Below are positions 1 through 62,753 of a stretch of 64,000 nucleotides of DNA, piece after piece. The stretch comes from Echinarachnius parma (lineage: Eukaryota; Echinodermata; Echinoidea; Clypeasteroida; Echinarachniidae). The DNA is taken from positions 1-64,000 of the forward strand of contig JBAMJV010009670.1 of NCBI GenBank assembly GCA_037951105.1. The letters are read 5' to 3'. The position numbers and the translations under genes were made by a program. The notes below the pieces were generated by a model that worked only from the letters and a program-made list of their open reading frames with translations, did not search any database and was not told where the DNA came from. Numbering within the stretch: the first letter of the stretch is position 1; every line of letters starts with the position of its first letter.

Positions 1-1029
1 GTAGCTATATGGTGGGTTTAGGCCTTAGGGGTCATGAAGTCCCGATCTCACATTTTTCATGATTACACCACGATGCTTGATGATATCTGCTTGTAAATTC
101 ATTGGCGTCTTCCTTAGATTCCTGCGCATCATATGATACCAAATTTGAGCATATTGCATATTTGGTTGTTGTGAAAAATGTTGTTAAAGCGTGATGCGTC
201 ACACACGGAAGTGACATTTTTAATGGAGCGTTTATGTATAAAAAACAAATATAGTACCAATAATTAAAAACAATGATATATTTTGATCAGTACAAACTAA
301 ATGTGCATCAAAATAACTTTAGATATATGTTTACCATGAAATCAACTGGTTAAAAACACTAAACAATAAAGAACATAAGCAATAAAAACAAAGAAATACA
401 TAAGAATTTGAATCTGTTCATGTAATTATTTCTTTAGATCTCTTCAAAATTACATTCACTGATACAAAAATGCATCAAAACATAATAAATTAACTTTGTT
501 AGTGTTCCATGAATCAGACACAATAAGAGTTGTGGAGTAGGGAGGGTGGGGGGGGGGGGGGGGGGGCATGACCAAGCCTAATTGTCAGTGGACTCAACAG
601 TATTAAAATTATTCACATTTTAGTATTATGATGGATTTAGTGTGGTCAGGAGACTAAATAAATAGTCTCTATTTTGTAGTTGTCTTTAATATTTTTGAGC
701 TCAGATTACAGGATACTATTACAGCCGTGGATTGTTGTGAAATGTTTACCCAACCATGCTTTCTATGACCATGATGACCTACGATAACAACCAGGTTGGA
801 CAATTTAACTGCTGAAAGTATGAAGTGAAAATTGAAAAGTGCCCTTCTATACAATCATGTATATTAACCCTACTTTCTGAGATACGCATACATATTTTGA
901 ATGAGAGAACCAGTTATAAAACAAAAGTCCATTATTGCAGATAATAATATCTACCAAGCCAAACGATTGTAGTTTCGGCAAAACATGGTATTATCGCTTT
1001 CTGTGAATGATCTTTTCAATTTCTGACTC

Positions 1030-1490
1030 GCCAACTGATATCACAGATTTCCGCGAATTTTCTATTCATTTCTTAAGTCACCAGCTGCTATCACTGATAT
1101 CCGCGAATGTTCTATTCATTTTCTTAGTCACCAGCTGCTATCACTGATATCCGCGAATGTTATATTCATTTTCTAAGTCACCAGCTGCTATCACTGACAT
1201 CTGCGAATGTTCTATTCATTGTCTAAGTCACCAGCTGCTATCACTGATATCCGCGAATGTTCTATTCATTTTCTTAGTCACCAGCTGCTATCACCGACAT
1301 CTGCGAATGTTCTATTCATTTTCTAAGTCACCAGCTGCTATCACTGATATCCATGAATGTTCTATTCATTTTCTAAGTCACCAGCTGCTATCACTGATAT
1401 CTGCGAATGAGTCACCAGCTGCAATCTCTGCTTTCCTCGAATGTTCTATTCATTTTCTGAGTCACTGCTGCTATCATTGCTTCCCATTAT
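1030..1490. repeat. 50-bp minisatellite inside left TIR
   Basis: About seven to eight tandem units of 50 bp, each containing AGTCACCAGCTGCTATCACT and ending TCTATTCATTTTCT. They begin at 1081, 1131, 1181, 1231, 1281, 1331 and 1381, with diverged or shortened units at the margins. Units alternate between two variants (GATATCCGCG and GACATCTGCG), which suggests some expansion in two-unit steps. The last unit merges with the 3' end of the minus-strand coding remnant. Confidence 0.9.
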
Positions 1491-2095
1491 AGCAGTGCAC
1501 TGCACCCTTCTGCACTTGGTTTCTAGGCCCTGACAACGGCAGCCTATGTTGCATGGAACCGCCTTCTTTGAGCAAGAACAGTTCTTCTGGCATCCCTTGA
1601 CACATCCACACAATATTGTCTTTTCCATCGATTCAGGCCAGGCTTGCTGTGTAGATGGCACTGGAAATGGTTTCCCATCAGTCAAGGACCATCCGAACTC
1701 TGTACACGATGGAATGTTTGGCTTGGCGATGTGCGCATTCTTGTCAATGATGGTCGCATGAACAGCTCTCTTTAGGTGCAAGAGGAAAGCATCTTCTGTG
1801 GGAGGCAGCAGCTTCAGGAGAGTTGACTTGTTGTTCAAGAACTTGTAGGCTCTCAATTTTCCAAGATCAGAATCTTCAAATTGGTCGCTTTTGGTGGTGT
1901 ACACATATATGGTCAGTTCTCGTGCCTGGGTGATGAGGTCGCCTGTTATGGCATTTGCTTGGTTGTCACCATAGTCTATCACTGCAGGTGTGTTTCGTTT
2001 CATGCTGCTCTTGAGCCATGCTTTCTTGCCGGTGAAGCATGGGTAACTAGAGGTATCTCTGCCACTCAGACTGCGCATGACACAGATTATTGCTA
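1446..2095 (-). pseudogene. C-terminal half of Academ-like transposase (Cys8 zinc finger), inverted
   Basis: The open minus-strand reading runs to a stop at 1446. From about 2065 it reads SLSGRDTSSYPCFTGKKAW, then a mixed region (LLKLLPPTEDAF, HLKRAVHATIID, FGWSLTDGKPFPVPS). It ends in a compact cysteine cluster of the pattern CxC-xxx-C-xxx-CxC-x6-C-xxx-CxC at about 1520-1600 and an acidic SSSDSENE tail that runs into the 50-bp repeat. The eight cysteines match a Cys8 finger. In the protein family as I know it, SLSGRDT directly follows ALGPSQ; here ALGPSQ is at the far end of the opposite-strand remnant (about 2940). This half is therefore intact but flipped and moved relative to its N-terminal half, so the locus cannot encode the whole protein. 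A start codon upstream in this frame reads antisense to the other half and is probably not used. Confidence 0.75.
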
Positions 2096-2945
2096 GTGGT
2101 GGACAACTCGACATTGTTGATTTCATAGGGAAGCATGAGTGCAGTAATAGTCCTCCATCTTTGTTCAAGGAAGACGGCAGTATGAGAAGTGGTACCAAGG
2201 CTAGCCTGGTGAAGGTCTTAAAAGAGGAAACCAAAGTGACATGTGTTTCCGATTTGCCTCAGGATGACAACAAAACAGCAGTTGTTGTTGATGCAATGTG
2301 CGCCATACGGCGCTGTTCATTTAACAAAGGGGAAACATTTGAAGCAATCGCCGAACGGTACACAAATCTGTTGCTGAAAGATGTTCCTGTTGGTACCGAG
2401 ATCATACACTTTTGTTGCGACAGATACAGTGGAGCCAGCCTGAAGTCTGCTGAGCAGGAATAGAGGTATACCCGATCCAAATTAGCCAAGGTATATGAAG
2501 TCAGTGGCCAGTACACAGCTCCTGATCCACAGGAGTTTTTCTCTGTATCAGCGAACAAGGCGAACCTTCTGAGCTTCCTGTGTGAAAGGTGGTGTGAGAA
2601 TGAACAGCGTGAACCTTCTCTTGGCCAAACTCATTTGTACCTTGGTCAAAGAAGGAACAAAAAGTGTGCTCCTCACAGGAGGATCTGTGGTGAAAGTTCC
2701 AGCCCTTGAATCTACACAACAGGAGGCTGATATACGGGTCATACTCCACACACTCTACAGTCTCAAGAATGATGGACTCGACAGAGTTGTCATACATGCC
2801 AATGACACTGACATCATAAACATGTGCATATACCATGGTGCAACAAATCTCACGGATCTCTCAGAGATGTGGGTGAGGACAGCCCATAATGCATACCTAC
2901 CTATCCATGATATGATTGTAGCACTGGGGCCATCACAGAAAATGA
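2085..2945 (+). pseudogene. N-terminal half of Academ-like transposase (XPG/FEN1-like nuclease), broken
   Basis: The plus-strand reading starts near 2085 with LDIVDFIGKHE and GSMRSGTKASLVKVLKEE. It then carries three signatures of an XPG/FEN1-type (PIN-like) nuclease: an N-terminal acidic strand VVVDAMCAIRR (about 2281-2313), the I-region QQEADIR (about 2717-2737) and HANDTDII (about 2796-2819), whose acidic residues would bind metal. It closes with MWVRTAHNAYLPIHD and ALGPSQ, then runs straight into the 50-bp repeat at about 2940. Breaks: an in-frame TAG at 2461-2463 after AEQE, and a frame change between about 2630 and 2660, since the earlier frame ends in THLYLG and the later one resumes at KEGTKSVLL. 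Its natural continuation is on the opposite strand at 1446-2095. Confidence 0.75.
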
Positions 2946-2949
2946 ATAG

Positions 2950-3125
2950 AACATTCGCAGATGTCAGTGATAGCAGCTGGTGACTTAGAAAATGAATATA
3001 ACATTCGCGGATATCAGTGATAGCAGTTGGTGACTAAGAAAATGAATAGAACATTCGCGGATATCAGTGATAGCAGCTGGTGACTTAAGAAATGAATAGA
3101 AAATACACGGAAATCTGTGATATCA
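2950..3125. repeat. 50-bp minisatellite inside right TIR (short array)
   Basis: About three inverted units of the same 50-bp repeat seen at 1030-1490 (GTGATAGCAGCTGGTGACTT). The arrays in the two arms differ in copy number although the arms otherwise match closely. Confidence 0.85.
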
Positions 3126-4350
3126 GTTGGCGATTCAGAAATTGAAAAGATCATTCACAGAAAGCGATAATACCATGTTTTGCCAAAACTACAATTTACA
3201 TTGTATGTTTTGCATGTATTTGTTCGTTTGGCTTTGTAGATATTATTATCCGGAATAATGGACTTTTGTTTTTATAACTGGTTCTCTCATTCAAAATATG
3301 TATGCGTATTTCAGAAAGTAGGGTTAGTATACATGTATAGAAAGGGCACTTTTCAATTTTCACTTCATACTTTCAGCAGTTAAATTATCCAACCTGGTTG
3401 TTATCGTAGGTCATAGAAAGCATGGTTGGGTAAACATTTCACAACAATCCACGGCTGTAATAGTATCCTGTAATCTGAGCTCAAAAATATTAAAGACAAC
3501 TACAAATAGAGACTATTTATTTACTCTCCTGACCACACTAAATCCATCATAATACTAAAATGTGAATAATTTTAATACTGTTGTGGAGTCCACTGACAAT
3601 AAGGCTTGGTCATGCCCCCCCACCCCCCCCCCCCCCCCTCCCATACTCCACAACTCTTATTGTGTCTGATTCATGGAACACTAACAAAGTTAATTTATTA
3701 TGTTTTGATGCATTTTTGTATCAGTGAACGTAATTTTGAAGAGATCTAAAGAAATAATTACATGAACAGATTCAAATTCTTATGTATTTCTTTGTTTTTA
3801 TTGCTTATGTTCTTTATTGTTTAGTGTTTTTAACCAGTTGATTTCATGGTAAACATATATCTAAAGTTATTTTGATGCACATTTAGTTTGTACTGATCAA
3901 AATATATCATTGTTTTTAATTATTGGTACTATATTTGCTTTTTATACATAAACGCTTCATTAAAAATGTCACTTCCATGTGTGACGCATCACACTTTAAC
4001 AACATTTTTTACAACAAGCAAATATGCAATATGCTCAAATTTGGTATCATATGATGCGCAGGAATCTAAGGAAGACGTCCATGAATTTACAAGCAGATAT
4101 CATCAAGCATCGTGGTGTAATCATGACAAATGTGAGATCGGGACTTCATGACCCCTAAGGCCTAAACCAACCATATAGCTACAGTAGGGGTGATTTTCTT
4201 AAAACTCATTCTGTGGGCTTCGAGCAGCTTGTCCGCGAGGTTGTCCACCTAGATTGTGTTCCTAGAAGGTCCTAGAAGCCATTTCTGGCCACCAACCTTT
4301 TACAACAGGCAAAAGCTGATATCCGAAAAAAATGGGTGTTTGCCCCCTGG

Positions 4351-4730
4351 GTAATAGGGAACCTGGTCCAATATGTGACAATAGGACGAAAATCAACAAG
4401 TGTTGATCATTTGTGATTCACAACAATGTAGTGAATTGTATAGAATATTTGGAATATGTTTGTGGTTTCATGGTATTCTCACTATTCTCACAATGTTAAT
4501 AACATATTGCGTTTTCCTTTACTTTCCACTTGAATGACCACAAACATTTAAATAATGCGAAGAACAATACAATGTACGTGATAGAACATTCCTCTTCCTT
4601 TATTCACAAAAATAATTGTGAATTCGTACAAATGTTGATGTACCTTTGCGACTTTGTTCATTGTATTCTCGCCATGTTAGCGTTTTCCTTTATTTCCCTA
4701 ATTATTGGATAGGGATCCACAAAGTTTATA
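4351..4730. other. No gene seen
   Basis: AT-rich sequence with short diverged direct similarity between about 4505-4600 and 4955-5010 (both contain AGAACATTCC and TTTATTCAC). No convincing coding signal. Confidence 0.5.
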
Positions 4731-4942: not shown

Positions 4943-5318
4943 CATTAACAATGATGACAATGGAGCGGAAGAAACAACAAGCGATAGAACATTCCAATCA
5001 TTTTATTCACGATAATATGGCGATTCCATATAAAATACACGGGAATCCGTATGTTTGTTTTTTTACTCAAGGAAACACCGAAAACAATGATGAGCTATGT
5101 AGCTCAATAAGACTCCCGTCATGCCCGTTGAAAGTGTTTCATCTATTGTTGCTTGTTTGCCTGAAACGATACTAGATATTTACATTATGTGGACTGGAAC
5201 TAATACTATTGGGACGGGTTGAACAGCTCAAGTTATACTTTTTAGAAAGTGGTAAAATGTTTGTTTTTGTTTATGCTATAGTTTTATACGACTGCGTATT
5301 TTATAAACGCTCTTCATG

Positions 5319-5445
5319 GTCTCGTTGAAGAAAGCGATACAATCGATTGTAAGTTACAATAATGATTGTAAGTCAGAAAATTTGCGGTTTTAACCAATCA
5401 GATTTGCGCATCTAGACCACATGATCTCTTTCTGCAACGGGGCCC
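5319..5445. mobile_element. MITE, GGGCCCCGTTGCAGAAAG family, copy 1
   Basis: The ends read CTCGTTGAAGAAAGCG and CTTTCTGCAACGGGGCCC, with ACAATCGATTGTAA inside. It belongs with the copies at 16867-17000 and 59828-59992; the left end here is eroded. Confidence 0.7.
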
Positions 5446-5446
5446 A

Positions 5447-5733
5447 GGGGTGTGTTTCACAAAGATCCCAAGTCGAAGTACGGAAAGCCTTTAGTTTCTT
5501 TGAAAAAATGTTGTAAAAGTCCTTTTTCAAAGGCATAAAATGTTGATTAAAATCATTAATATGTGTTATTATCAAGGAGATTTCATGTTCTTGATGCAAA
5601 ATTTATGAAAAGTCTAAAATTCTTGAATCGTTGGTTTTGAATATATTGTATTCCAAGGCTACAAATGGCTTTCCATAATAGTAAAGTCCAACTGAGAGTC
5701 AAGTTTAACTTAGGATCTTTGTGAAACACCCCA
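5447..5733. mobile_element. MITE with GGGTGTTTCACAAAGATCC ends
   Basis: The left end GGTGTGTTTCACAAAGATCC and right end GGATCTTTGTGAAACACCCC are inverted. It abuts the preceding MITE with no spacer. A solo right end of the same family lies at about 49098-49123. Confidence 0.75.
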
Positions 5734-7240
5734 GGGTCATCTATCAGAGGTTCGGAAATTTATCAATCACCATGCAAAACAGAAATAAAAGCATCAATCA
5801 TGTGTGAAAGGTTTACAGTGGTATTGCGGTTTAAAATAAGAACAAACAAGACAATACTATTATGATTGATTGGTATTTCCCATTTCCTTTTTGTAAGCCC
5901 AACTTAAAAGAAAAGAGCATCGTACACAGAAATACAGAATGTGTCCTTTTTTATTCCTTTAAGTTGGGCCAGGATATTTCTGATTCTAGAAAAGCAGCAT
6001 CGATCAAAGATATTTTGTCATTTGTATTGTAATTTCATACAAACATCTATAAACCAGTCATCATAGTTGTAATTGAAGTTCGAGGGAACTGGGCTAAGCA
6101 TTAAAGTGTGAAAAGAAAAGGAGGTACATGTACATGTAGTTGAAAAGCATCTGACATTGGTGATTTTTTTCTTCTTCTTCAAATAATATATAATGAACAG
6201 AACTTTGCAACTGAAATTTTGAACATGGTTCGAGGGAAGGGTGATATTCGCGATAAATGGAGTGTAAAGAAAAGCAAATAAGAGAAAAGAAACTAGTATT
6301 GATTAGAATATTGTCATTTGACAGGCCTTTTCAAATTACAATGGACTGGTGGAAACCGCGGTTAGATTTATAGCGTGAAAGCCGTGAATAAAATTGCAGA
6401 TGACTCATTTAGCTCCCCGTGTCGCGGTAGCCAGGCATATGGTGTGAATCTTTTATTGTGTCCACATGTGCTTGAAAAGGTATACTAGTTCTGCGTCCAA
6501 AGTTCGGGCTCAAAACAAGAAGCAGACAAAAAATAAACACACACACACACACACCAGCTGACACACACACAAACGTTTCAAGTTCCAAGCGAAGGGTATA
6601 TTATGCAAAAACCGATAGACATTTTTACCATGTCGAGATAAATTCAATTTAACCTGCTCAAAAGCAGTGGAAAAAAAAAAGCAGTGAAACACAATCTGTA
6701 AAGTATCGTATTCTAAATAAATGTTTTATCGGTTTGTTTTTTTGCATAATTATGAACTCTTCATATAGCTTATTTTTCCATCTCCAACAAATCAACATGT
6801 TAATAACATTAATTAGTACAAATCAAATATGCAAGGCAAATATTATTATTGTCGCCCGAAGGTGAACATAATTTTTCACCATAGCTTAGTCAATGGCGTA
6901 GGGATGGGGTGAAAATGGGGGGTGGGAGGGGGGGGGGGGGAGGGGGGGCGGGGTTGCATGAACCAATAATTGGGTTTTATACATGTATTAGCGTAATGTG
7001 TTTGTTGTTTGTTTGTTTGTTTTTCTTTCACCATTGGTGCCGGGAAGTGGGCAATATCCCTCGAATATGTAATAATGCAGCTAATAGACGAATGTTATAA
7101 CTAGCGGCCAAGATATAATGGCTACCTATAGTGATTTTCTTTTAGAAGTATACCTTTTATAGAACCTGCCAATAGATGTCACCTGTATAGAGTGGCCAAT
7201 TTTCTTGTTCCCCTCGGGTGGTTACTATACAATCATGTCT
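5734..7240. other. Intergenic with simple repeats, no gene seen
   Basis: Contains a hairpin at about 5896-5973 (AAGCCCAACTTAAA against TTTAAGTTGGGCC), a (CA)n tract near 6538-6575, a G-rich run near 6905-6955 and GTTT repeats near 7000-7025. I find no coding signal. Confidence 0.5.
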
Positions 7241-7241
7241 G

Positions 7242-8110
7242 ACCATGTTGACTGTAAATTGTATACTTTGTGTCAACATTAATACATTTTAATCTGGATA
7301 ACATGTATGATGTGTGGAAGCACGGTAGTCAACATATTTTCAGCTATTTTGACCAACGCCCTTTTGATGAAGGATGGTAACCAAGGGCAACGGAGAATCG
7401 GAGATCGCATCTTTTCAAAAACAACATCGAAGACGTGGAGTGGAGAGGAGAGGATTATTCTTCTGAATTTGTCATAGATGTATTCAGTAATGATAATACA
7501 TATTTCAAAACAACCATTATGATTTAGTAGTATATTTTTACAAATTAAGCCTGACCATTTTCCCTTGATTTATCGGCCAACAAGCCCAACATGGTCAATA
7601 TATTATGTAAGATAGATAATATTATAAAAGATGACCATCTTAGAGAACAATGTTGATCAAGTTGAGCATAAATGGGGATTACGCGTGTGCGGCGTGGAAG
7701 CATGATAGTGTTTTCATGTTTTCAGTTACTTTGGCTAACGCCCTTTTAATGAAGGATGGTAACTAAGGGCAACGGAGATTGCATCTTTCAAAACAACATC
7801 GCAGAAGTGTGGTGGAGAGGATGATTATTCTCCTGAACTTGTATAGCTTTATTCCGCGATGGTCGCATCTCCCATAACAACCATTATGATTTACGTACAT
7901 TGTACATGTATACTTTATACATGTTATACAACATACGATCGTTACCATTTCAACCCTTGGTATACTATCGCTCAATATATATTATTACAAAAGGGTCTTC
8001 TTAAAAAACAGCATTGGAGAAGTTGAGTGGGATTCTCCTGAACGTGTATAGCTGTATTCCGTGATGCTTGTATATCTCTATTAACAACTATGATGATTTA
8101 CATTTAGAAA
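7242..8110. repeat. Three diverged tandem units of about 370-390 bp
   Basis: The stretch with CTAACGCCCTTTT-ATGAAGGATGGTAAC and CAACGGAGA at 7350-7400 recurs at 7735-7785. Following blocks (AACAACATCG, TGGAGAGGA, ATTATTCT-CTGAA, ACAACCATTATGATTTA) recur in order, and a third, truncated unit lies at about 7990-8105. Divergence is about 20-30%, so the duplication is old. Confidence 0.75.
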
Positions 8111-25524: not shown

Positions 25525-26070
25525 CTGTAGATTTAGAGACAAAGACAAAAAATTACGTAATACGATGTAGATAGTTTTCAGTTGGATATTATGATAATAA
25601 TATGAATAATAAGGAGGCTTCCGGTGATACCATGATCGGATGATGTTGATCCTTTATACTATTTCATAGAAACAGGTGTGGAAGAACATGAATGGAATAA
25701 AGTACACCCCTAGACTCCTGGGTTAATGTCTGTTGCGCGTGACAAAACGATTATCAAAAGGCGAATCCACCCTAGGCATTGATGAATGTATCAATTGAAT
25801 AAGAGGCATAACGAGCGAAAATCTGAACAAAACACTGATTTATTATCTCATTTGTGATCAAAACACCTGCAAATGTTTCAATAGTGTTGCAAAGATATGT
25901 ATTGATTTATGACTGCCGCGTATGAAAATTCAATGAAAGGAGAATTCCATCCTTAAAAAAAATGATTGTTGCTATATAACCATTTTTCATAACCATAACC
26001 ATGATAACAGAGAGGAATCATCAGTGTAATCTGACAAAGAAAACACGGTAGAGCAACACGAAGCTTTGAC
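25525..26070. other. Start of presumed 5' intron of RING-less TRIM gene
   Basis: No coding signal. Short T and A runs only (for example about 26143-26162). Confidence 0.4.
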
Positions 26071-26930
26071 AGTTTGAGATTTATTTAAAATTGTGTATGC
26101 CATTCGTACTTGCCAGCGATTGTAACGTCATAATTTATGTAATTTTTTTTTTTTTTTTTTTTAATTGAAATGTTCACTTCATTTATACATGATTAGGCTA
26201 TGTTCTAGTTTCGTGGTTTATCTCTTGTTTCATATTTTGTGATTTTCAATGAAATTCTACTTTTAAAAAAACACAGCCAACTTTGCTATGGCGGATCAAA
26301 TGTTTTGTCCGTGTATGAATACAAATACATGCACACAAAAACAAAAACAAACAAACAGTTTGAGATTTATTTAAAATTGTGTATGCCATTCGTACTTGCC
26401 AGCGATTGTAACGTCATAATGTATGTAAGTAGCTTCCATGTTTATTACAAAATTGAAATGTTCACTTCTTTTATACATGATTAGGCTATGTTCTAGTTTC
26501 GTGGTTTATCTCTTGTTTCGTATTTTGTGATTTTCAATGAAATTCTACTTTTAAAAAACACAGCAAACTTTGCTATGGCGGATCAAATGTTTTGTCCGTG
26601 TATGAATACAAATACATGCACACAAAAACAAAAACAAACAAACAGTTTGAGATTTATTTAAAATTGTGTATGCCATTCGTACTTGCCAGCGATTGTAACG
26701 TCATAATGTATGTAAGTAGCTTCCATGTTTATTACAAAATTGAAATGTTCACTTCTTTTATACATGATTAGGCTATGTTCTAGTTTCGTGGTTTATCTCT
26801 TGTTTCGTATTTTGTGATTTTCAATGAAATTCTACTTTTAAAAAACACAGCAAACTTTGCTATGGCGGATCAAATGTTTTGTCCGTGTATGAATACAATA
26901 CATGCACACACAAAAAATATATATACAAAT
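26071..26930. repeat. Three tandem copies of a 286-bp unit
   Basis: Units start AGTTTGAGATTTATTTAAAA at 26071, 26357 and 26644. Units two and three are almost identical; unit one differs by scattered changes and a longer T run. Each contains GCCAGCGATTGTAACGTC, CATGATTAGGCTATG and ATGGCGGATCAAATG and ends in (ACAAA)n. Unit three runs into simple sequence. Confidence 0.93.
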
Positions 26931-27061: not shown

Positions 27062-27310
27062 TAAAAACCAACAAATAAGAAGTGCACTACATGCATATAA
27101 ATTGCATCTGGTTTGGAATTCCCCGTTGAAGTTTAGAAGTGTCCTTGGTCGAGCAACATATCCCATGTTTATTGTACTCGTCGTTCTTTGAAGCGATCAG
27201 TACATTGTGCCTTCCTGGCTTTTCATTGTTGCGATGTACCCTCATCTATTATGGTCACCCAATTAATTGGTATGGAAACGAATAAACAAAATTATATCAC
27301 AATGAATACA

Positions 27311-30290
27311 CAGGGAGCAAAGGGGGTTATACAGACATGGAATGTTATAAAAGGTTGGGGCCCATAATCGTCTTCTAGGACCTACAGAAGCACAACCTAG
27401 GTGCACAACCTCGCGATCTAGCTACTGGAAGTCCACAAAACACATATGAAGGATGTTACCCCTATTGTACGTTAAAAGCGCCTTAAATCCTTAGGGTTCA
27501 TGAATGTTCTACTCTGCTATTTTTACGATTACCCAAATACGCATGCTGCAGCTATCATCGCATTTCTTTGGATAGGTCTTCCATATATATGTGTGCATCT
27601 ATTGATACCAAATTGTGCCTTTTTATATCTAGGGTTTTTATGTCACGTGTCTTTATATGTCAGGTGTCAGACATAGAAAATGAAATTTCACATACTCTTG
27701 TGGACACAAATTTATGGAAATGTTTCAGATTAAAGAATGACACATTTTATATCTGTAAAACCATATACTGAATGTTTATTGGTATTTAATATTATTAAAA
27801 ACAATACACTGGCAAAACAAATGATAAAACAATACAAAACAAAAGAATTTGAAACAAGGTACACAAATAAGAATAATAATTGTAATAATTATAATGACAA
27901 TGAAGTGGCTGCTTTATAGCAAACGTTCGGTCTATTTGACGCTCGCAGCACATCATAATGTTTATTCCCAGTCATTGGATACATACTGTAAACAATCTAG
28001 CACACAAAGTACATATGTTCACTCCCTGGGAAATATTCCAGCCTGGCACCTTGTATGCGAATACAGTGCTAAAGAATCACGTTCAATCCGTCCAGGCACT
28101 CTCTAGTTCTGAACTCGGGACCTCATGATTTTAAGGCATGCGTCCTTCCAATCTTTATTACAAGCAAAACCTTTATAATATATTTCAGGCCTTTGTAAAT
28201 ATTTTCAGGTCTAGAAAGATATATAAAATAACCATAAAATCAATAATGTTTACAATGATTATCAACCATATTTGCTTTCTTTTTTTTATTGTGTTTAATA
28301 TTTCAAACAAAAACATTTTGTTGTTATGAATTGTCGCATTTTACATTACGAACCTGCAAACAATTTTGTTGCAATTGGCACTAAATATTATAATATGGGG
28401 CTGGGGATACGAGGGTGTATCGGCATCGTTTGGAAATACAAAGTCAACATAAAAGGGTATATGAAAGCTGACATATCTTTGGGATGAGTCTTTTCCCACT
28501 GATTAGATGACATTCTCGTAATTCTTCGTAATAAGAAGAAAAGCCAAGAAGTAAAATTATATTCCCACATTGTACTCAATGAAGGGGGTTAGTATCGGTA
28601 TCAAGGCTAGCCTGATGAAGATCCTAAAAGAGGGGACGAGCTACAAAGTGACACATTTAACAACCATCCTCATGCAACATATCACATAAAGAAATCAGTT
28701 CTTTTTAGATGCTAATATAATATACTCTATGGTATTTTAACAAATGTGAAATACACTAGCCTATAATTTAGGATATGTTGATAAACTACTGAAGAATTTT
28801 GCTGATTGATATCCCTCTAAAACTAAACAGCATACATTTATGTAAAGTACAACACCCGCTAAAGAGTAACAATGATGTGCTCGACAGTCATTTAGTTTTT
28901 GAACCATGGATGTTTTGCAGTTAACTCAGGAAATGCTCTGATGTTCCTCAGTGAGAACCGTGTTTGAATAAACCGCTTAAATCTGCACTTAATTAAACTT
29001 GACAAAGTGAGCAATTAATGGAAGGGAATTTCCATGTCCGAGTCCTTGTCTTTAATCCACAAATCTGAAGACTGGTTTCTTGATTATCTGTGGTTTTCGG
29101 GTATTAAGCGGCTCACAGAGTTGTCACCAATGCCAATGAAGACATCATTGCATGTGTCTGCATAATGAAGGATCTTAACTCGGGTATACTGAAATGTGAA
29201 AGCCACCACCCTAATTTACACAGCTCTATGAAATTAGTGTGATACTGTTGACATTACATTAAGTGCTGGGTAATGTACTTATTACGAAATACGGCTAGAT
29301 ATTCGTGGTCATTGGCAGGTAAGGCAATTTTTAATGAGTCCTGGAGACACATATGCAGTCACCTAATGTAAACCATAGCTGTTTAATCCATCATCCTGAC
29401 CAGTTCGAGGGTTCAAATCTTTGAAAAGCTGCAATATACAAGCTCTTAAAGATCTTTTCTCAATAAAGGAGATGCTTCTCCGTAGGAGCTGTGATCACCA
29501 TCAATGACAAGAATGGAATGTCACGGATTCAAATAGTATATCATTATGTTGTTCTAAATTGTAAGGGTTCTTTCATGATAGATATTATATATCTAGGCCT
29601 ATTACATATTTGCTTTCCATAGTCTATATATCTTCATTCTGTGCATTTCATGATTAAGATGTGAAATAAATAAATGCGTTTATTTCTATTATAATGATTT
29701 GGTGAAAACATATACCACAGATACACTATCAAGAACTCATATTCTTATGTATTTTATTGTTTTGAATGCGTTATGTGTTCTATCATTTGAAAAACTTTCC
29801 AAAATAACATTGAATGCCAATTGAAGACTTCCAAATAAAAAGTGTGTAACGTTTTAAATAGTCTAAACATTTCAATGCGTTTTTGTACATAACTGAACAT
29901 GCAATTTCATGTTGTTTGTATAACACGTGACTTATAAATGACACGTGACACATAAAACAAAGATATGATGCGGTCAAATCTAGTATCAAACGATGCACAA
30001 GACCCTACAGATCACGAATCTGAAGCAATCTGTTGATATCATCGTGCATTTTAGTGTTATTGTGAAAATAGCAGAGACAAACCTTCATGAACCCTAAGGA
30101 TTTAAGGCGCTATTTACGTACATTAGGGGTTAAATCGTTAATACGCGTTTTCTGGACTTCCAGTAGCTAGGTCGCGAGGTTGTGCACCTAGGTTGTGATC
30201 CTAGAAGGTCCTAGAAAACATTTCTGGTGCACAACCTTTTATAACATTCCATGTTTGATATCCTAAAAAAAGGGGGTGTTTGCTCCCTGG
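27311..30290. mobile_element. Decayed second copy of the Academ-like transposon
   Basis: The left terminus TACACAGGGAGCAAAG (27308) and right terminus GTTTGCTCCCTGGGTA (30293) are inverted and match the right terminus of the 1-4350 element. Subterminal blocks match too: GGTTGTGCACCTAGG and CCTAGAAGGTCCTAGAA on the right, their reverse complements on the left. Inside, TATCATCGTGCAT, ACCCTAAGGATTTAAGG and others parallel the long arms of the first element. Flanking GAA on both sides (before TAC at 27308 and after GTA at 30293) is a plausible 3-bp target duplication. About 3 kb, heavily mutated. Confidence 0.75.
28588..29170 (+). pseudogene. Relics of the Academ-like XPG-type transposase
   Basis: GGTATCAAGGCTAGCCTGATG to AAAAGAGG at 28598-28634 matches the GTKASLVKVLKEE coding stretch at 2191-2230. 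CACAGAGTTGTCACCAATGC to GACATCATTGC at 29116-29155 matches the RVVIHANDTDII stretch at 2781-2820. The two relics keep the original order and strand, but the space between has no usable reading. No cysteine-cluster relic was found. Confidence 0.65.
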
Positions 30291-30299
30291 GTAGAAGGT

Positions 30300-47189: not shown

Positions 47190-50100
47190 CTAATATCCAT
47201 ACGGGGATGCAGGGACCTCCTTGATGATGATCCTTGAGGCGCTGTTCCATCCAGTGAGAGCATCGTAGTTCCCATATCCCGGACAATCCCCCACTAGGAA
47301 CTTGACGTTGACAGATCCCGCGCCGACTGTGTGACAGTAACCTGAGATTTTAAGATAGGGATGAATATGAAAAGCACATTGATTAAAAAGTATAACGCAT
47401 GTCATTGATTATTGATCAATGCAACCTACTCGGCACCCTATTTAGTACTCTTTTTGGCATCCGGCTCGACACCCTACATGCCTACTCGGCACTCAATTTG
47501 GCACTCACCTCGGCACCCAACTTGGTACTTGAATATCGGCACCCGACTCTGCACCCCACTCGGCACCATACTCGGCACCCTACTCGGCACCCCACTTGCC
47601 ACTCACTCGGCACCCGACTCGGCACCCAACTCTGCACCCGATTCGGCACCCGACTCGGCACCCTACTCTGCACCCAACTCCCTATTCAGCACTCACCTTG
47701 GCACCCGACCCAACACACAATTGCTGGTAGTAAATATCGGTAAATTATCAAATACATATGTTTCTACCGGAAATAAAATCGTACGATATAATTCTGATTT
47801 TCGTATATCGAAACAGATTTCTAGTTGCAAGGTTTGAAAGCAGTTAGAGATGGTGTGAGTATTCATAGAAACACAATGCTCTCCGCGTGACGTCACCCAT
47901 CGCTATTGTCACGTTGAATGGATGTAGAGAACTGTAATCATTAGTGCGTAGCGCCGAGGACCAGGCGAGCCCAGATTCTTGCATGGCTATCTCGGTGCCT
48001 TGCCTTAAAACTGGCAATAAAATCGTCAAGAAAAACGATTTTGAGTTGCTCTCCCAGCTAGTTCGGGACTCTACTCGGCGTGCGTGTCAGAGTTTCTCCC
48101 GCGTCCTACCGAGTCGGTTATCAATTGTTGCCATACTATTAGTTCAAACTTTACTAGTTTTTTTGAATATTACATTTTTATTTTTGGCGAAGCCATTTCT
48201 TGTATTCGACGCCAAATATTAATAGTCAACGTGGTCAATATGAGAATGTATGCTGGAATTTAGCATTGTTTACCGCGTTGTGCCGAGCTAATGTCGGGGA
48301 CACATCTCGACAACAATCTTTTCTACAGTGTGAGGGCAGAGGGGACGACGTCTTACGGGCAAATTTTTAAAGAAATGATGTAATTAGCAAGTTTATTAAC
48401 AAGCTAAATTATAGTGATATGTCTTTCTTTTCAGTTTGAGGGAATCGCAAGGTTCAGCAAGCCGGAGTGCAATGGGAATACAATTTATGATAATAAGCAA
48501 CAAATTATGCCTTTTAAAGGGGTAGTTTAGTTTTGGTAGAGAGGGCGCTGCACATCACAATTTTTTTGTGAGGTAATGCAAAATTGAGTGTCGAATTTGA
48601 GAGAACATACAATTTTAATGGCAGAATAAACTTTATTTGGTCACAATCGACCCAGAAAAGGCTGAAATATCAATAAATATATCTGATCTTATAATTATTT
48701 GGGGCCCAAATAATTAGATGATTTTTAGAATTTTTGTTTAAAATGCTTGCACTTTTTCAAAAATTTTCAAAAGCGTTTTTAAAATAGTTGTTGATGAACT
48801 CGCTATTTAATCATTATATCAATAAAACATCACATGCATAATTTTGTATGAAAAATGGTGGAAACCAATGCCTTTTTAAAAGCGCCCTCTTGTGTTTTAA
48901 TGGCTCTTTTTGAATGATAACCGGCTTTTTACTTAGTCGTTTGTAATTTTGTATATCTTTCGAGCATGGTGGAGTTATTACTATTAGTTTATAATGTAAC
49001 TGTGCAGGTTTTGGCTACTAAAGTTCAGCCTTACCAAAACTAAACTACCCCTTTAAAAGAAATTTCACAAATTGTTTAAAAGAAACTAACGGCTTTTCAA
49101 GGATCTTTGTGAAACACCCCCCAGGTAGTAGTATATCATCCGTATTGAAGAAAATTCCAGTATGCAGTTGTTGCGATCGCAAGATCACGTGACAAAATTC
49201 TAGTACGCTCGGATCGCCGAACGACGTAGCAGCCGCCGCTTTGTGTATAATGTCAATGGACCCTTTACTTCCTGGCATGACACCCGAAACTGAATGAAAG
49301 ATAATTCATGAATATCAACTCTATGACCTTGTCATTGCCTAACATATTTTGAGAACAATATACATTTTCAGATTATTCAAGGAATACGATCGTTTGTTTA
49401 AAATTCAAGGATACAACTCGAGTTTGATTGACAAAAATGACTCTCCTTTCTTCTTGCATGCATGCCTGCCGCGCCGTACATTGCACGCACACGTATGCAA
49501 TTGGGACCATTGGTTTCGTGTTTCGTATAACTGCAGAACGAAATCAAGAACCCGATCAAACCCAAATTTAACTACTAAGTATTAATTTCTGACAAACTTG
49601 ATATGATTTCCCCCTAGTATGGAATATCTAAAATACATTTATATGCTTTTCCATACAAAGACAATTCTTACCCTTCATTTGAGACTGTGTTTGTTGCAGT
49701 TTCCAGAGCGAAACATAGCACGGACGGGTACGGGTACATGTACGCACAATGCAGATAGTGCTTGAACTGCATGCAGCTTGATTGCATGCAATGGAGTGCG
49801 CCGCGAGCCGTGTGATTATAAGTGGCAGTGAGAGACAGGGGGTTATATTACTTACCAGAAATACTCCGATGTCGATGTAGATTCATATTGTTCGTGTTCG
49901 CCTGGTAGACGGTTCCGTCGATGGTCACGGGAGAGCACTCGTTGTCGTTGAACGTGAAGTACCATCTCTTGCAGCAGCCGCTGCAGCCGTACGTTCGGAG
50001 GTTGCCGCCGTAGTACACATACAGGGCCGAGTCGCTGTACCGCTTCGTGAAAGTGCACGTCTAAAAACGCGGATGAGAAGTAGGGAGGGGGGGGGGGGGG

Positions 50101-60536: not shown

Positions 60537-62753
60537 CTAGTATCCATACGGGGAAGCAGGGACCTCCTTGATGATGATCCTTGAGGCGCTGTTCCACCCA
60601 GTGGAAGCATCGTAGTTCCCGTATCCCGGACAGTCCCCCACTAGGAACTTAACGTTGACACTGCCCGCGCCGACAGTGTGACAATAACCTGAGATGAGGA
60701 AACAGAAACAAATCTCATTTTAAGATAGGGATGAATATTAAAATGCACATGTATAAGTATGACACATGCCATTGACTATTGATCAATACACCCTATATAC
60801 TCGGCACCCCACTTGGCACTCTATTCAGCACTCGTCTCGGTCCCCGACCCAGCACACAACGATGCACCGGCTCGACACCATACTCGTCACTCAACTAAGC
60901 ACCCGACTCTGTACCCCACTCGGTACCCTACTCGGCACCCTACTCGGCACATCACTTGCTACTCACTCGGCACACGACTCGACACCCTACTTGGGACTCC
61001 AATCAGCACCCTGCTCGGGACCCTACTAGACACCGCATTCGGAACTCCCGACTTTGCACTCGACTCAGCACCCTACTCGGCACCTGACTCGGCACCCCAC
61101 TTGGCACTCAACTCGTCAACCAACTTGGTACTTGAATATCGGGACCCGACTCTGCACCCCACTCGGCACCCGACTAGGCACCCTATGATGCACTCTTCTC
61201 GGCACCCGACTCGGAAATTAACTCGGCACCCAACTTGGTTCCCGAATATCGGCACCCGACTCGGCATTAAGCCCTCTGCAGACAGACTGAAGCCCGGCGC
61301 AGACAGAGCCGACTCGACCCGATCCGACTGGTTTTCAGTCAGGCTAGAGTCAGTTTCGCTCAGTCGGAGCCGATCCAACATGTTGAATCGGCCTCGAATG
61401 ACCTCCGACTGGCACTTGACTGGAAAAACCGGAGTCCTGAGGCAGCGTATACTGAGTTAATCATGTTGAAAACCAGTCGGATCGGGTCGAGTCGGCTCTG
61501 TCTGCGCTGGGCATGAGCCGACTCGACCCGATTCGACTGGTTTTCATTCGGATCGGCTCAGTTTTGCCAGTCGAGAGACAGTCGGATGCCAGTTGGGGCC
61601 GATTCAACACGATGCATCGGATCCGACCGACCGGGCCCAACTCTATCCTGTTTGTAACTAGTCGGATCGGGTCGAGTCGGCTCTGTCTGCAGATGGCTTA
61701 ATGCCCGGCGCAGACAGAGCCGACTCGACCCGATCCGACTGGTTTTCAGCCTGATTAACTCAGTATGCGCTGCCTCAGGACTCCGGTTTTTCCAGTCGAG
61801 TGCCAGTTGGAGTTCATCGAGGCCGATTCAACATGTTGGATCGGCTCCGACTGAGCGAAACTGACTCTAGCCTGTCTGAAAACCAGTCGGATCGGGTCGG
61901 CTCTGTCTGCGCTGGGCTTTAGACTCGGCACCCTAATCGGCACCCGACTCGGCACCGCACCGGAATTGGCACCCGACTTTAAGCCCGGCGCAGACAGAGC
62001 CGACTCGACCCAATCCGACTGGTTTTCAGTCAGGCTAGAGTCAGTTTCGCTCAGTCGGAGCCGATCCAACATGTTGAATCGGCCTTGAATGACATCCGAC
62101 TGGCACTTGACTGGAAAAACCGGAGTCCTGAGGCAGCACATACTGAGTTAAACAGGTTGAAAACCAGTCGGATCGGGTCGAGTCGGCTCTGTCTGCGCTG
62201 GGCATCTCGTTACTCGACTTGGCACCCAAGACGAGACCCGACTTGGCACCTAATCTGGTACTCGACATGATATCTAACTTGGACCCAATTTAGCACTGGA
62301 TCGGCACCTATTTAGACGCCCAACTCGACATCCGAATCAACACCCAAATCGCCAACCCAACCCAACTGAGCATATATGTGTGAAAGAAGACATTCATATA
62401 GAAAATACAAATAGTTGAACCATTCATGCTCATCGAAACAAAGATTGAACTAAAATTGACTTTCATTAGTCTATTGCTAGGGTTATGGTAATGATCATAA
62501 TATTGGAGTACTTATTTCAAACTAAACTACGAATTGAACTACTCTTACCAGAAATACTCCGATGTCGATGTAGATTCATGTAGTACGTGTTTGCCTGGTA
62601 GACGGTTCCGTCGATGGTCACGGGAGAGCACTCGTTGTCGTTGAACGTGAAGTACCATCTCTTGCAGCAGCCGCTGCAGCCATACAACCGGAGGTTGCCG
62701 CCGTAGTACACATACAGGGCCGAGTCGCTGTACCGCTTCGTGAAAGTGCACGT
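60537..62753 (-). CDS. CTHRC1: CTHRC1-like tandem duplicate, last two exons (5' part beyond window)
   Basis: Exon 62753-62549 (205 nt) and exon 60688-60537 (152 nt, stop at 60537-60539) have the same lengths, phases and splice sites as exons 3 and 4 of the gene at 47190-54712. The protein differs by only a few residues (RLYG for RTYG, NTYYMN for NTNNMN, DAST for DALT). The cysteines and TGWNSASRIIIKEVPASPYGY are retained, so this copy looks functional. Signal-peptide and collagen exons should lie right of 64000; none is visible between 62754 and 64000. The few differences suggest recent duplication or gene conversion. It transcribes in the same direction as the first copy, about 13 kb upstream of it. 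Confidence 0.9.
61267..61701. mobile_element. TTAA-flanked MITE containing a second foldback unit
   Basis: TTAAGCCCTCTGCAGACAG at the left and CTGTCTGCAGATGGCTTAA at the right. Inside, AAGCCCGGCGCAGACAGAGC (61290) and GCTCTGTCTGCGCTGGGC (ending 61512) bound a shorter foldback unit rich in CGACTCGACCCGATCCGACT. Confidence 0.8.
61702..61921. mobile_element. Foldback MITE of the GCCCGGCGCAGACAGAGCC family
   Basis: TGCCCGGCGCAGACAGAGCC on the left and GGCTCTGTCTGCGCTGGGC on the right. It shares its left TTAA with the preceding element. Confidence 0.8.
61979..62203. mobile_element. Foldback MITE of the GCCCGGCGCAGACAGAGCC family, further copy
   Basis: TTAAGCCCGGCGCAGACAG on the left and CTGTCTGCGCTGGGC on the right. 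The arms are nearly identical to the unit at 61290-61512, in the same orientation. Confidence 0.85.

Follow-up and report, generated by a model that had tools for sequence, protein, structure and literature searches.

How do two halves of a single coding chain come to lie back to back, on opposite strands, between long inverted arms? This question is raised by the beginning of a 64,000-nucleotide stretch of Echinarachnius parma DNA (GenBank assembly GCA_037951105.1, contig JBAMJV010009670.1, here C9651, positions 1 to 64,000 of the forward strand; hereafter the window), which opens inside a palindromic transposon that we name E1. A sequence-only reading had described it as an Academ-like element, and had attributed its split coding region to a rearrangement peculiar to this copy. 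Comparison of E1 with the rest of the 1.2 Gb genome shows that the rearranged unit is a multi-copy family, not a local accident, and that the two halves form one chain in a native element of the same genome. The family was probably formed by one template-switching gap-repair event and then mobilised in trans.

Two coding halves in E1 and their native order

The features of E1 are listed in Table 1. Long inverted arms and coding halves on opposite strands, both noted before, were borne out. The arms (1-1224 against 4182-2937) are at least 1.2 kb long and match at 1184 of 1210 aligned bases (97.9%), with 9 gaps and 26 mismatches; the latter indicate that they are two real sequences. The extent of 1-4350 given previously needs correction at its right end, which lies at 4353, and the left terminus is absent, the contig beginning inside the element. 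In the left arm, 8.1 copies of a 50-bp unit occupy positions 1005-1409 and degenerate units continue to ~1480; the units of the right array match the outermost left units in order and register. The minus-strand open frame (2258-1446) encodes SLSGRDT, a Cys-rich cluster with ten cysteines (a Cys8 finger had been proposed; the cluster stands, the count of eight does not) and the end DSSSDSENE, and its final codons and stop form one unit of the 50-bp array. In the plus-strand half, VVVDAM is in one frame and EADIR and ANDTDII are in another, because of an in-frame TAG and a frameshift near 2645-2661. We also noted that a CATG at 2076-2079, beside the fusion point, provides overlapping divergent ATGs for the frames of both halves (MTQII... 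and MRSLSG...).

Table 1. Coordinates of E1, its parts, and the second relative E2 in the window
Feature	Position	Strand	Remarks
E1, palindromic element	1-4353		window start is base 1 of contig C9651
Left inverted arm	1-1224	.	cut by contig start; outer part resembles 5' end of native element
Left-arm 50-bp tandem array	1005-1480	.	about 8-10 units
C-terminal half (C-half), reversed	1446-2073	-	SLSGRDT ... Cys-rich cluster ... SDSENE stop; open frame
Junction 1	2071-2073	.	starts of the two halves joined back to back; CTG microhomology
N-half	2071-2938	+	VVVDAM, EADIR, ANDTDII, ALGPSQ; native codons about 624-915
In-frame TAG	2461-2463	+	in 12/12 subfamily A copies and L026; CAG in 6/6 subfamily B copies and L028
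Junction 2	2936-2938	.	ALGPSQ fused to 50-bp array; CAG microhomology
Right inverted arm and right terminus	2937-4353	.	ends ...TTTGCCCCCTGGGTA
Right-arm 50-bp array	2937-3160	.	4.4 units (2937-3156)
E2, second decayed relative	27307-30293	+	TACACAGGGAGCAAA...TTTGCTCCCTGGGTA; flanks GAA/GAA by eye; N-half then C-half traces, same strand

The C-half protein was used as a query to find the native chain. More than 40 rows were obtained at 87-92% identity, each with one or more stops, and one match of 74% lay within an intact frame of 1131 residues on contig C1252 (locus L029). On a single strand this frame has the order ...LLRMTQIIASGGELDIVEF...ALGPSQ-CRALPFIH-SLSGRDT...Cys cluster...SSSDSENE, and an additional frame of 547 residues is located upstream of it. 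A second copy, on contig C6980, is 98.6-99% identical to the C1252 copy and colinear, with its frame broken into 1193 and 479 residues. The claim that SLSGRDT follows ALGPSQ on one chain therefore holds, since both copies carry the two halves in order and on one strand; intact relatives with the halves as separate genes on opposite strands, the case named as speaking against it, are not what these two copies show. The native element is ~7.1 kb long with terminal inverted repeats (TIRs) of ~110 bp, and in its chain the nuclease-like half continues directly into the Cys-rich one. The C6980 element measures 7143 bp and is flanked by the target site duplication (TSD) AAA; that on C1252 is ~7.9 kb long with a duplicated 5' end, and has the TSD GTA when the outer left end is taken. 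The native inverted repeat is only 110 bp (93.6%, blastn). Inspection of L029 together with L035 (C1252:113300-123800, element on the minus strand) revealed two left termini 563 bp apart, of which the outer one fits GTA.

Alignment to the C6980 element delineated both breakpoints. E1 2071-2938 corresponds to native positions 4981-5855 in forward orientation (76.9%) and E1 1442-2078 to native 6511-5874 reversed (80.6%), which places junction 1 at 2071-2078 and junction 2 at 2936-2938, in agreement with the breakpoints near 2090 and 2940 suggested earlier. Microhomology amounts to ~3 nt per junction. E1 lacks the eight codons that separate the halves (CRALPFIH in L029) as well as 624 upstream codons of the 1131-residue frame. 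The right arm (3778-4353) matches the native 5' end (581-1, 65.7%) and the left arm (23-500) native 193-689 (59.5%); arm positions 24-117 match the native stop region. The 50-bp unit derives from the native stop-codon region, and is present as a single copy in L029 and as an array in both E1 arms. Two early readings were abandoned. According to one, the C-half started with AIICVM and abutted ALGPSQ exactly; AIICVM, however, results from reading the beginning of the N-half in reverse, and eight codons are missing. The other took both arms as plain 3' ends; over their outer 580-690 bp they correspond to the 5' end of the native element, and only the array is 3'-derived.

A multi-copy family with target site duplications

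When window positions 2000-4000 were used as query, 76 rows were obtained; 18 of them, counting E1, extend over practically the full query, and with it over both junctions, at 88-100% identity. Twenty loci (L009-L028), fetched from matches to a query spanning both junctions and hence selected for that match, all align, across junction 1 and on a single strand, to the interior of E1, with a tandem duplication in L022 and a gap within L026. L015 and L027 lack one end, so that 18 of the 20 loci were usable for TSD analysis, and identical 3-bp flanks were found in 17 of these 18 copies, the exception being L021.

A pattern search, with reversed patterns as control, detected junction 1 (up to 3 mismatches allowed) at 82 genomic sites on 79 contigs and junction 2 at 78 sites; neither reversed control gave a site. 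Junction 2 was located within 2.5 kb of 77 of the 82 junction 1 sites, at 781-874 bp in 71 cases. With each junction present ~80 times in the genome, and the rearrangement carried by all 20 fetched loci, it is not peculiar to the E1 copy, contrary to what had been supposed. We also paired the best-scored matches to the two halves (139 N-half and 150 C-half rows, giving 120 and 139 loci). Among the matches listed, 79 pairs were divergent, 5 were colinear and none had another arrangement, with 36 N-only and 55 C-only loci. The five colinear loci among these matches are on C11519, C1252, C4335, C459 and C6980, that on C459 being scrambled further out. The scrambled family thus outnumbers its colinear relatives among the matches scored (79 versus 5), and annotators should be aware that ~80 loci in this genome might each be mistaken for a pair of divergent genes. 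The family is non-autonomous, because it has its termini in common with a fuller element, contains no intact transposase and has inserted multiple times with a TSD.

The interior alignment comprised 20 of 21 sequences, L022 being left out for its tandem duplication, and distinguished subfamilies A and B; these and L028 have both junctions in common. The arm comparison covered 10 copies of A and 7 of B in which both arms are present, L028 and L033 being added for the left/right column counts. In a tree of 39 arms, the A left arms, the B left arms and the B right arms each form a group, and the A right arms are placed away from the left arms; L022 deviates, in that its two arms pair with each other at weak support. 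Of the 947 columns compared between the A and B consensuses, 0 have a left/right difference that occurs in both, so that no left/right arm difference can be traced to the family root. Likewise, A and L028 had 0 of 552 and B and L028 had 0 of 548 columns with such a common difference, and the counts with L033 were 0/808 for A and 12/808 for B. We had considered L033 (protein identity 47% for the C-half and 39% for the N-half) as an ancient scramble and rejected this; given the 12 left/right sites common with B, it is probably a decayed subfamily B copy.

Affiliation and other relatives

As far as tested, the TSD and the Cys cluster indicate that the element is Academ(X)-like. Residues 185-517 of the L029 frame match the Pfam family DUF6589 (PF20231; E value 3e-8, 33.2 bits, cut-off 27), which is presumably the Academ transposase; DUF6589 was not mentioned in the literature searched. 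The Cys-rich cluster, which presumably corresponds to the published Cys8 finger, was read directly (ten cysteines in E1, nine in L029), and no Pfam domain matched there. To that extent the previous assignment to Academ stood. Its XPG/FEN1-like label found no support from hidden Markov model (HMM) searches: no Pfam match to XPG was obtained at E≤10 for the window pieces or at E≤1 for L029, and a genome search with PF00867 gave 12 places, none at N- or C-half loci, the nearest being ~9.5 kb from a C-half match on C1038. The designation nuclease-like is based on acidic motifs read by eye. Searches of Pfam, NCBIfam and PDB sequences returned nothing useful for the window pieces, and the same was true of PDB for the native halves; no relatives were confirmed in the viral contigs or prokaryote genomes searched. 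According to the available text of PMC10045372, AcademX elements generate 3- or 4-bp TSDs. Separately, XPG_I matches at G000:C1038:64626-64871 and C2467:153684-153932 lie in open frames of ~480 residues, unlike the mostly exon-sized matches elsewhere; these frames are possibly a retrocopy or another mobile element.

E2, in the same window, gave the first evidence that it is E1 and not the native element that was rearranged, because its N- and C-half traces are in native order on the same strand. None of 300 shuffles reached either score, and in 33 tiles of the remaining window, both strands included, the next best scores were 109 versus 155 for the C-half and 123 versus 324 for the N-half. Its arms are about 79% alike in a gap-lenient alignment. 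Decay of the E2 sequence limits this reading of the order to the two half traces. By eye, ~27940-28180 of E2 resembles an inserted sequence of the short interspersed nuclear element (SINE) type. In a comparison of the E1 arms with E2, 99 sites were common with the right arm and 58 with the left; this was not used as evidence.

Two further loci, L034 (C459) and L031 (C2903), likewise possess long arms that match the 5' end of the native element; in E2, L031 and L034 the two arms resemble each other at only about 75-79%. In L034, native codons 489-732 lie, in pieces, inverted behind the C-half, with a forward copy of 489-529 (E 0.004) in front. L031 has native codons 489-550, in pieces, inverted behind the C-half and a forward copy of 507-534 in front; its flanks do not match and no TSD was seen. 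Neither locus appeared among the junction 1 or junction 2 sites, although the patterns might miss them at 66-76% DNA identity. Because the breakpoints differ at the two loci read, we take this scramble as independent of the E1 type. It is probably multi-copy: many of the C-half matches are similar to that on C2903, with identities near 66% over residues 55-164. A reverse-transcriptase-like frame (187 residues from 844) was noticed by eye in L034.

Other repeats in the window comprise a 287-bp tandem repeat in three copies with 96% matches (26069-26915), a 12-bp unit (ACTCGGCACCC-like) that occurs in similar form in one array at 47484-47680 and in another at 61047-61266, and a diverged direct repeat pair at 7291-7893 with a spacing of about 370-380 bp, one 64-bp stretch of which is 89% identical.

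Origin of the arrangement and known systems

A single genome displays the native chain together with both breakpoints and the amplification, and the shared junctions are most simply explained by a single origin. We infer that E1 is a copy of a non-autonomous, Academ(X)-like cut-and-paste family, and the following course is the one we consider likely. The ancestor would have been an element that already had TIRs of ~600 bp. In a single event a gap, left by excision or arising within the element from a break or a stalled fork, would have been filled from another copy; the template ends being interchangeable inverted repeats, both sides of the gap would have copied the same end inward. One tract would have run through the array and the C-half to SLSGRDT and the other would have halted after about four repeat units, while a copy of the N-half, attached at the CTG and CAG microhomologies, closed the space in the middle. 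A full-length relative, for instance of the C1252 type, would then have moved the unit in trans, and the gene halves of the unit would have decayed. One such copying event would account for the palindrome, the reversed C-half, the codons lost on both sides and the short right array, as well as for the absence of old arm differences and the presence of the 3' gene end in both arms; the array derives from the native stop-codon region and yet occupies both arms. In the available text of PMC8277862, gap filling is reported with microhomology (1-36 bp, median 2) at at least one breakpoint in 190 (67.6%) Pack-TIRs; the TIR elements concerned are from animals. Several points weigh against this course of events. 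A parent with a long TIR, colinear and >95% identical, was not found, and the order of events is therefore a reconstruction. The same order would result if the N-half was simply inverted while the TIRs of the element were undergoing homogenisation, and ordinary gene conversion from TIR to TIR would lead to the same left/right result. A microhomology of 3 nt is short, and at junction 1 it is only 2-3 nt against L029. The terminal ~120 bp of the right arm (4188-4307) also resemble the native 3' TIR (81.7%). Mobilisation in trans is a step that we infer; the ratio of 79 to 5 is no census, since it concerns best-scored candidates only and the C-half query came from E1's own rearranged family; and for single-copy cases the available text of PMC8277862 prefers breaks within the element to excision.

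The nearest alternative, which we regard as distinctly less likely though still a serious contender, is a plain inversion: in a long-TIR element from which the upstream part was already missing, the N-half would have been freed by two breaks and rejoined back to front. Two breakpoints suffice for this, short microhomologies are present at both junctions, and E2, L031 and L034 possess long TIRs; it requires, however, a separate earlier loss of ~624 codons, separate copying of the array, that is the 3' gene end, to the other side, and homogenisation of the arms at about the same time (0/947 columns). The arm-to-arm route proposed from the sequence named template switching or recombination between the 50-bp repeats. 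Template switching, via TIRs and short microhomologies, is the part that we retain. The repeats are homologous and inverted, but an exchange between them would flip everything between the arms jointly and leave the halves colinear, and junction 1 has no repeat, so that such recombination appears very improbable. Compatible with either route of origin, the divergent halves starting at the CATG might be two proteins that aid or control transposition. The C-half frame is open over the aligned stretch in 11 of 12 subfamily A copies and the N-half TAG is absent from subfamily B and L028, whereas TAG is found throughout A, both halves of the B consensus are frame-broken, and each transcript would begin inside the opposite half. 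Ratios of nonsynonymous to synonymous substitution (dN/dS; groups of 12 A and 6 B copies and L028, with L026 in neither) against L029 were 0.11-0.12 for the N-half and 0.18-0.22 for the C-half. Within the family, where all values come from small counts, they were 0.33-0.62 (N-half, 0.33 between A and L028) and 0.98-1.41 (C-half) between subfamilies, and 1.13 (N-half) and 0.60 (C-half) on terminal differences. The 0.33 and 0.60 would favour two functional proteins, and the 0.98-1.41 and 1.13 speak against them. The halves look formerly constrained and now near neutral, weak constraint being possible, and we consider a functional split very improbable. An assembly artefact, a concern raised for E1 since palindromes are hard to assemble and contig C9651 ends inside the element, has a negligible chance: junction 1 is present on 79 contigs, the copies differ in their flanks and have 3-bp TSDs of their own, and there are 26 mismatches between the arms. 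A bolder proposal, which we put forward as a long shot, is that the swapping of element ends during repair is a recurrent route to new palindromic families (the E1 type and the C459/C2903 type), with the CATG-sharing halves still giving rise to two separate proteins by which the full-length element is regulated. The proposed formation of long TIRs, with one element end copied onto the other, has become testable: the event may be dated from the arms, and the C459/C2903 type, scrambled in another way, is available for comparison.

Among the papers listed in literature searches on Academ elements and on gap repair with template switching, none described, in its title or the opening of its abstract, an Academ element with coding halves arranged back to back, Repbase lying outside that scope. 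Like AcademX elements, whose domain make-up is taken here as general background, the E1 family has 3-bp TSDs (17/18 copies), a C-terminal Cys-rich cluster and nuclease-like motifs by eye; it differs in that the upstream part with the presumed transposase is absent, the halves are on opposite strands, the arms are long and XPG was not confirmed by HMM. Double Ds and rearranged Ds are inverted, composite, non-autonomous derivatives that still move, and the E1 family resembles double Ds in being such a derivative, a likeness drawn from the general description of these elements and not from sequence. In Galileo (P superfamily) of Drosophila willistoni, the TIRs absorbed the end of a coding segment, one copy has direct tandem repeats in its TIRs and many copies are defective, all of which recalls the E1 family (PMC4168063, available text). 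Galileo belongs to another superfamily, with 7- or 8-bp TSDs and not the 3 bp of the E1 family, and back-to-back halves are not described in the part of PMC4168063 that is available. Pack-TIRs (gap filling/FoSTeST) likewise involve template switching at microhomology inside a TIR element, followed, in multicopy cases, by amplification through transposition; their filler is sequence from outside the element, whereas that of E1 is the element's own gene (PMC8277862, available text). A Bari1 variant of D. rhopaloa is similarly a long, identical-TIR variant in a short-TIR lineage, but it is putatively autonomous, and a flipped coding half is not mentioned in the available text of PMC4877112. We conclude that the E1 family, striking as it is, derives from a transposon of a known kind and does not represent a new kind of system.

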